NCBI GenBank assembly: GCA_000170815.1
Contig: ABCO01000008.1
Coordinates: forward strand, 97,809 to 161,808
DNA: 64,000 nt
Direction of reading: 5' to 3'
From: an unidentified eubacterium SCB49
GTDB lineage: Bacteria > Bacteroidota > Bacteroidia > Flavobacteriales > Flavobacteriaceae
Under the pieces are notes generated by a model that saw only the letters and a program-made list of their open reading frames with translations, was not told the origin of the DNA and did not search any database. A program made the position numbers and the translations under genes. Shown here piece by piece: positions 30,706 through 31,254 of the stretch (position 1 is its first letter; each line of letters opens with the position of its first letter).

Positions 30706-31128
30706 ATGATAAAAATTACCGCCTTAGATATTGACGAAGGAGATGAAATGATACATTATTCATTTTTCGCAAATAATGAGGTTTGCTCTGCAGAGGTTGA
30801 ATTTTATGGTTATGATGATTCTTTTAAAGATTTTGCCGAAAAACTTTCAAACTTTCCGAATAAAACAAATGATAAAGTAAAGTTTGAATACGGGCAAAAA
30901 GATGATAAATATTATTCTTATTTAATGTTAGAACTTCATTGTTTCGACCCAAATGGAAAATCCGCGATTGAAGTTGATTTATGTAATAATGGAAATACAA
31001 TTTCTAGATATGAGGCAAAATTTCAAATAATTGCAGAAATTGCTTCAATAAATAAGTTAGGACAATCTTTGAAATTATGGAATCCAATTAAAGATTCTCA
31101 ATTTGAATGGAAACCCTTCTCAGAATAA
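30706..31128 (+). CDS. hypothetical acidic protein
   Basis: 140-aa ORF 31 nt after hisIE; no family recognised. Confidence 0.6.
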   Translation: MIKITALDIDEGDEMIHYSFFANNEVCSAEVEFYGYDDSFKDFAEKLSNFPNKTNDKVKFEYGQKDDKYYSYLMLELHCFDPNGKSAIEVDLCNNGNTISRYEAKFQIIAEIASINKLGQSLKLWNPIKDSQFEWKPFSE

Positions 31129-31167
31129 AAAAATGGGAACAAAACGTTTCAAGTTTTATTCCCATTT
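31124..31167 (-). terminator. intrinsic terminator of the orphan TPP-type riboswitch
   Basis: Minus strand: AAATGGGAA-T-AAAAC ttgaaac GTTTT-G-TTCCCATTT then TTTTATT; about 15-bp stem with one T.G pair and a T-tract. Confidence 0.8.
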
Positions 31168-31170
31168 CTA

Positions 31171-31254
31171 ATCAAATTCCTTCAGGGAGTATTATCTCGC
31201 GAAGTTCAACGGGTATCTTTTCTCAGCTGTTTTACTTAAGCACCCCGATTTAAT
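31171..31254 (-). ncRNA. TPP riboswitch-like (THI element) aptamer, orphan
   Basis: Minus strand: ATTAAATCGGGGTGCTTAAGTAAAACAGCTGAGAAAAGATACCCGTTGAACTTCGCGAGATAATACTCCCTGAAGGAATTTGAT; contains GGGGTGC, GCTGAGA, ACCC, TTGAAC, ATAATAC, AGGAA in THI-box order; P1 ATTAAAT/ATTTGAT, P2 CGGG/CCCG, P4 CTTC/GAAG, P5 GAG/CTC. Confidence 0.8.

Follow-up and report, generated by a model that had tools for sequence, protein, structure and literature searches.

A 64,000-nucleotide stretch of the genome of the unidentified eubacterium SCB49, a member of the Flavobacteriaceae (contig ABCO01000008.1, positions 97,809 to 161,808; hereafter the window), carries on its minus strand an element that is probably a stand-alone small RNA (sRNA) of about 130 nt, predicted to sense a metabolite through an aptamer of the thiamine pyrophosphate (TPP) riboswitch type and to lack a target in cis. 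The element is one of 81 distinct copies, found at many unrelated loci, of a distinct, covarying RNA family that is confined to the Flavobacteriaceae among the genomes searched. An earlier reading of the window, made from its letters alone (the sequence-only reading), had noticed a THI-box-like aptamer followed by a strong terminator and had offered three explanations: a TPP-sensing sRNA, a switch controlling antisense transcription into the his operon, and a relic of a thiamine operon. The parts of the element and its surroundings are as follows (window coordinates).

31126..31260, minus strand: whole element of about 130 nt, a TPP-type aptamer with its terminator (covariance model R1, 127.9 bits, model positions 1-134)
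31171..31254, minus strand: TPP-type aptamer, from P1 to P1'
31221..31226, minus strand: CUGAGA, the pyrimidine-sensing J3-2 T-loop
31190..31195, minus strand: L5 loop AUAAUA, which in TPP aptamers docks on P3
31131..31167, minus strand: intrinsic terminator stem-loop (31169-31129 by stem detection, 15-17 bp)
31127..31133, minus strand: T tract of the terminator, read from the sequence
31261..31268, minus strand: promoter -7 element TATATTTA, of the Bacteroidota TAnnTTTG type
31307..31312, minus strand: GTTAAA box, conserved, 44 bp upstream of the start of the -7 element
30706..31128, plus strand: convergent open reading frame (ORF) of 140 aa without assigned function, outside the unit

The element in the window

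A covariance search of the minus strand with RF00059 (THI-box) recovered the aptamer at 31257-31161 over the full model (1-105), with 50.0 bits and an E-value of 1.4e-8, and the core boxes GGGGUGC, GCUGAGA, ACCC, UAAUA and GGAA are all found in it. This score lies just below the RF00059 gathering score of 54.3, the membership threshold, so that a default Rfam scan skips the window copy. The terminator hairpin, which begins 3-4 bases 3' of P1, is the sole one in 30600-31500 on both strands (shuffles, 0.4 ± 0.6), and aptamer and terminator fold together with a z of -2.4 relative to shuffles. Past the element, the minus strand holds only the antisense of the 140-aa ORF and then of hisIE, in agreement with the earlier statement that no sense gene follows. 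The host genome contains two further TPP-type matches. One is canonical, scores 66 bits and precedes thiS-thiC; the other is weak, at 23.8 bits, and precedes a TonB-receptor-like ORF. The orphan is thus a third, separate element. The HMP-PP riboswitch (thiS motif) family gave no match in the Rfam scans, and neither did the element in a plasmid search.

Distribution of the family

A survey of RF00059 hits covered 100 relatives, and those hits that were taken as loci are mostly located in sense upstream of thiC-type or receptor-length ORFs. Seven orphans have in common a GGGAAC/GUUCCC-type terminator stem. In this first survey, a strict search for the stem GGGAA[CT]..GTTCCC found it behind 5 orphan aptamers and 0 gene-linked ones; the bare hairpin is not unique, as some genomes have 0-2 copies of it elsewhere. 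The covariance model R1, seeded with 7 orphan sequences and run over 400 Flavobacteriaceae genomes, gave a bimodal distribution: 36 of the 400 genomes yielded 38 matches with scores of 75.6-129.4 bits, and the next best match had 59.8 bits (G428). That match also turned out, when inspected, to be an orphan element, and most of the other inspected matches of 50-60 bits are gene-linked riboswitches. Scans of 298 genomes at order level and 349 at phylum level gave high scores in the same family only, with no member above 60 bits outside it, where the weaker matches inspected are again mostly gene-linked.

Further copies came from a pattern scan of named genomes followed by a check with R1, in Aequorivita, Gelidibacter, Christiangramia/Gramella, Arenibacter, Maribacter, Robertkochia and Formosa, as well as in Altibacter, Subsaxibacter, Marinirhabdus, Arcticiflavibacter, Pricia and Allomuricauda. 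Of the 80 loci listed by the pattern scan, those from other phyla stay below the scores of the element with the model. Closer to the window, the DNA of the element recurs at 95% in two congeners (G005 and G006) and at 81% in a third (G010), and it is absent at this site from G003, G007 and G009; in another genus (G038) it recurs at 74% at a different locus, facing prfB. Two copies occur in some genomes (G318, G261 and the locus L209, where they lie 3 kb apart at 930-1062 and 3885-4016).

Two other loci show related arrangements. One (L021, G042:C1:627266-627353) is a second type of orphan: its aptamer, of 65 bits, is more canonical in sequence, its terminator is unrelated and its neighbour is convergent. 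The other (L145, G275:C72:70789-70919) has a similar terminator, of the GGGGAAUA type, behind an aptamer that seems to be gene-linked, and is a possible ancestor of the stand-alone form.

Structure and conservation

The aligned copies document both the structure and the conservation of the element. All eight helices are supported in 39 copies, and P1-P5 fold with covariation. In this alignment 93.9% of cells pair and 30 of 37 pairs vary on both sides, and the covariation score of 0.450 compares with 0.168 ± 0.009 for shuffles and at most 0.113 for slid controls. Because orphans supplied the seed of the model and the copies were aligned to that model, pairing counts are inflated and the absolute values are biased upward. 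Together, conservation and covariation in the 39 copies exclude a chance origin. Mean identity is unevenly distributed, reaching 0.88 in the lower terminator stem and 0.82-0.88 in the ligand core, and falling to 0.47 in P1 and 0.48 in the upper stem.

Alternatively, the element could be the decaying remnant of a riboswitch whose thiamine operon or transporter gene was lost. The sub-gathering score of the window aptamer and the visibly degraded copy in the congener G010 would fit such decay. However, close relatives share 85-98% identity across the element, whereas flanks mostly show 0.55-0.82 against a random baseline of 0.61, and covariation is strong. Promoter box and terminator stem are conserved as well, and no recognisable thi gene adjoins any of the 81 copies. 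A relic, already contradicted by purifying selection across genera, is thus highly improbable.

A promoter of its own

The sequence-only reading had seen a Bacteroidetes-type promoter in TATATTTA (31268-31261), and comparison bears this out: the motif TAnnTTT[A] recurs at a nearly fixed position in nearly all of the 81 copies, and the TAnnTTTA -7 element starts 6-9 nt ahead of the element in most of them. A -7 element of the TAnnTTTG type is the consensus of the Bacteroidetes sigma factor (PMC7366714). Farther upstream, the GTTAAA box is found in 59/81 copies, against 8.8 expected from shuffles, and in just 3/84 gene-linked TPP riboswitches; its distance to the -7 element is 42-44 bp in 51 of the 59 copies that bear it. 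Promoter segments of close relatives are 0.62-0.95 identical. Within the window, the arrangement GTTAAA-N36-38-TAnnTTT[AG] occurs at this site only, and 18 further GTTAAA/TAnnTTT[AG] pairs lie elsewhere in 1.6 Mb of loci. The GTTAAA box is a putative contact of a regulator or of RNA polymerase.

Independence from neighbouring genes

Of the 81 copies, 59 have their nearest downstream ORF on the opposite strand, 21 have a same-strand ORF, which belongs to varied genes, and one has none. As judged by reading the translations of nearest ORFs rather than by family search, no recognisable thi or TonB gene lies downstream, and none of the 81 copies occupies a thiamine gene's 5' leader. In other genomes it faces prfB, murI, a TolC-like gene and others. 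Within the genus of the window the RNA stays while the convergent neighbour differs per species: no ORF precedes hisIE in G006, and other ORFs do so in G005 and G010. Correspondingly, the 140-aa ORF of the window, which has one homologue besides itself among 5.8 billion proteins, is not beside the element in congeners. The element therefore has, at the level of sequence, the traits of a trans-encoded sRNA, i.e., its own promoter, its own terminator, no ORF with a conserved start among the frames inspected, and independence from its neighbours.

The frequent convergence could instead point to a terminator-type riboswitch in which ligand-free read-through would produce RNA antisense to the convergent gene, here in the his region, as had been suggested for the window. 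In line with this, the opposite-strand ORF often lies within 50 bp of the element, and many copies would allow a weak pairing of ACCC[AG]UUG with the 5' arm of the terminator, CAA[A]GGG. Such a switch is nevertheless quite unlikely. The convergent gene varies between genera and even between congeners, P1 and terminator do not overlap, and the putative antiterminator retains an A.A or A.G mismatch at a position where canonical aptamers have the matching U. In transcripts ending before the 3' arm, the 5' arm pairs with the aptamer at a mean of 22%, exceeding 0.5 in 3 of 39 copies, which leaves no consistent antiterminator; the pairing of ACCC[AG]UUG with CAAAGGG was rejected as mismatched and weak. 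Since the terminator stem pairs with a probability of 1.0 in the full-length RNA in 39/39 copies and its 5' arm has no consistent aptamer pairing, the terminator looks constitutive and read-through into a gene in cis is unlikely.

A peptide-coding role was likewise rejected, on the basis of the start codons inspected. Frames of at least 10 codons starting with ATG are present in 66/81 copies, and those read by eye stem from L5, P1 or the terminator, with starts that are not conserved.

The ligand pocket

The pyrimidine-binding motif in J3-2 reads CTGAGA in 77/81 copies and CTGAAA in 4/81, and L5 keeps NUAAUN in 39/39 aligned copies. In the thiM riboswitch, G60, C77 and G78 contact the pyrophosphate or its metal (PMC3764141, PMC7824784). 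Contacts of this type in J4-5/J5-4 are not conserved among the orphans, whose J4/5 identity of 0.36 is near chance and which carry CG on the J5-4 side in 2/79 copies. The motif CGxAGG occurs in 6/81 orphans, 9/60 TonB-type and 16/16 thiC-type aptamers, a comparison with thiC that rests on regular expressions, as scripted J4/5 parsing read just 6 of the 16 thiC-linked aptamers. TPP itself is doubtful as the ligand because the residues contacting its pyrophosphate are not conserved, and the altered pocket suggests that the ligand may have changed. Thus, the first proposal of the sequence-only reading holds for a self-contained sensing RNA, which the comparative data back, and less so for TPP as what it senses. 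Additionally, the RNA persists in 34/38 carriers from which thiC is absent, and is therefore independent of thiamine synthesis; the gene is present in 4/38 carriers versus 8/35 non-carriers, with no clear association.

TPP riboswitches located before TonB-receptor-length ORFs (L050, L053-L103 and others) mostly have a near-continuous P4/P5 helix, e.g., CCUAGAACAG..CUGUUUAGG, and the canonical CG of J4/5 is absent in 55 of the 57 that were parsed. Their ligand may also be altered.

The terminator stem and a possible partner

The lower terminator stem reads AAATGGGAA/TTCCCATTT in the window and CAAAGGGAAC/GTTCCCTTTG in most relatives, and as CAAAGGGAAC/GUUCCCUUUG it is conserved to the same degree as the ligand core. 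Its conservation amid a drifting P1 and upper stem suggests that it contacts a partner. This stem, set against the near-chance J4/5, could also favor a structural or housekeeping sRNA that has the fold of a TPP aptamer but binds no metabolite, and that would act through the terminator stem or a protein. Hfq or ProQ homologues are not obvious in Bacteroides (PMC7366714), so that unusual RNA partners are conceivable. The ligand-facing J3-2 T-loop and the docking loop L5, however, are nearly invariant, a pattern difficult to account for if no ligand were bound, and we consider such an RNA rather unlikely.

The preferred reading thus remains that of a metabolite-sensing sRNA. Its mechanism could be as follows: the RNA would be transcribed from its own promoter (GTTAAA box and TAnnTTTA), fold into an aptamer of the TPP-riboswitch type and end at a constitutive terminator a few bases past P1. 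A thiamine-type ligand would most likely enter via the intact aminopyrimidine pocket; as the pyrophosphate pocket is not conserved, it could be thiamine, its monophosphate or hydroxymethylpyrimidine (HMP) instead of TPP. Ligand binding would make P1 and the aptamer fold more stable and thereby alter the stability of the RNA or its engagement with a partner in trans; the part most likely to contact this partner is the conserved lower stem of the terminator. What sequence comparison establishes is the existence of the element together with its conservation, structure and autonomy, while transcription, ligand binding and action in trans are inferred. Several observations weigh against this reading, beyond the upward lean of the pairing counts and the sub-threshold RF00059 score: complementarity to thiC or TonB leaders does not exceed that of shuffles, and in 10 genomes the 3' arm has no complement of 12 nt that is conserved.

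Relation to known systems

The element shares with the TPP riboswitch RF00059 the P1-P5 architecture, GGGGUGC, the CUGAGA T-loop, UAAU in L5 and GGAA, and differs from it by lacking a downstream gene, a conserved expression platform and conserved pyrophosphate contacts, and by its fusion to a conserved terminator stem. The TonB-receptor-linked TPP riboswitches of the Flavobacteriaceae reside in the same genomes and host family and likewise lack the canonical J4/5 CG, which is present in 2/57, but they are followed at a short distance by a receptor-length sense ORF. As a class, gene-linked riboswitches rarely have the GTTAAA box (see above), and none in the first survey has the CAAAGGGAAC-type terminator.

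Among riboswitch-derived RNAs, SreA and SreB of Listeria (Loh et al., 2009) combine an S-adenosylmethionine (SAM) riboswitch aptamer with a terminator in a short RNA acting in trans (PMC8079631). The element resembles them in this composition and may likewise act in trans; unlike SreA, which also controls its downstream operon in cis, no copy of the element shows such a cis gene. Rli55 and AspocR are non-coding RNAs behind a B12 riboswitch (PMC8079631), and thus similarly tie a riboswitch to a non-coding RNA instead of an mRNA. In these systems the riboswitch governs read-through into a separate functional RNA, whereas nothing is conserved past the terminator of the element. The HMP-PP riboswitch, a tiny terminator-embedded aptamer upstream of thiazole genes (PMC6478431), also has a terminator and a ligand from the thiamine pathway, as the element may have, but its aptamer is structurally unrelated. 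Literature searches of partial coverage found no earlier description of a stand-alone TPP-type RNA.

Elsewhere in the window, a Small SRP RNA (RF04183, 93 bits) lies at 54714-54820 on the minus strand.

Implications

Riboswitches are described almost always as cis elements. We tentatively propose that the family may represent free-standing RNAs acting in trans, in which a TPP aptamer would have been released from cis regulation, its ligand changed and its terminator stem reused as an effector. If true, a conserved family of riboswitch-type aptamers that carry a promoter and a terminator, with no thiamine gene beside any of the 81 copies, would clearly exemplify a metabolite sensor that works as an RNA in its own right. 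The altered pocket would make the change of ligand directly testable, and the element is present in genera that have been cultured and sequenced, namely Aequorivita, Gelidibacter, Christiangramia, Arenibacter and Maribacter.
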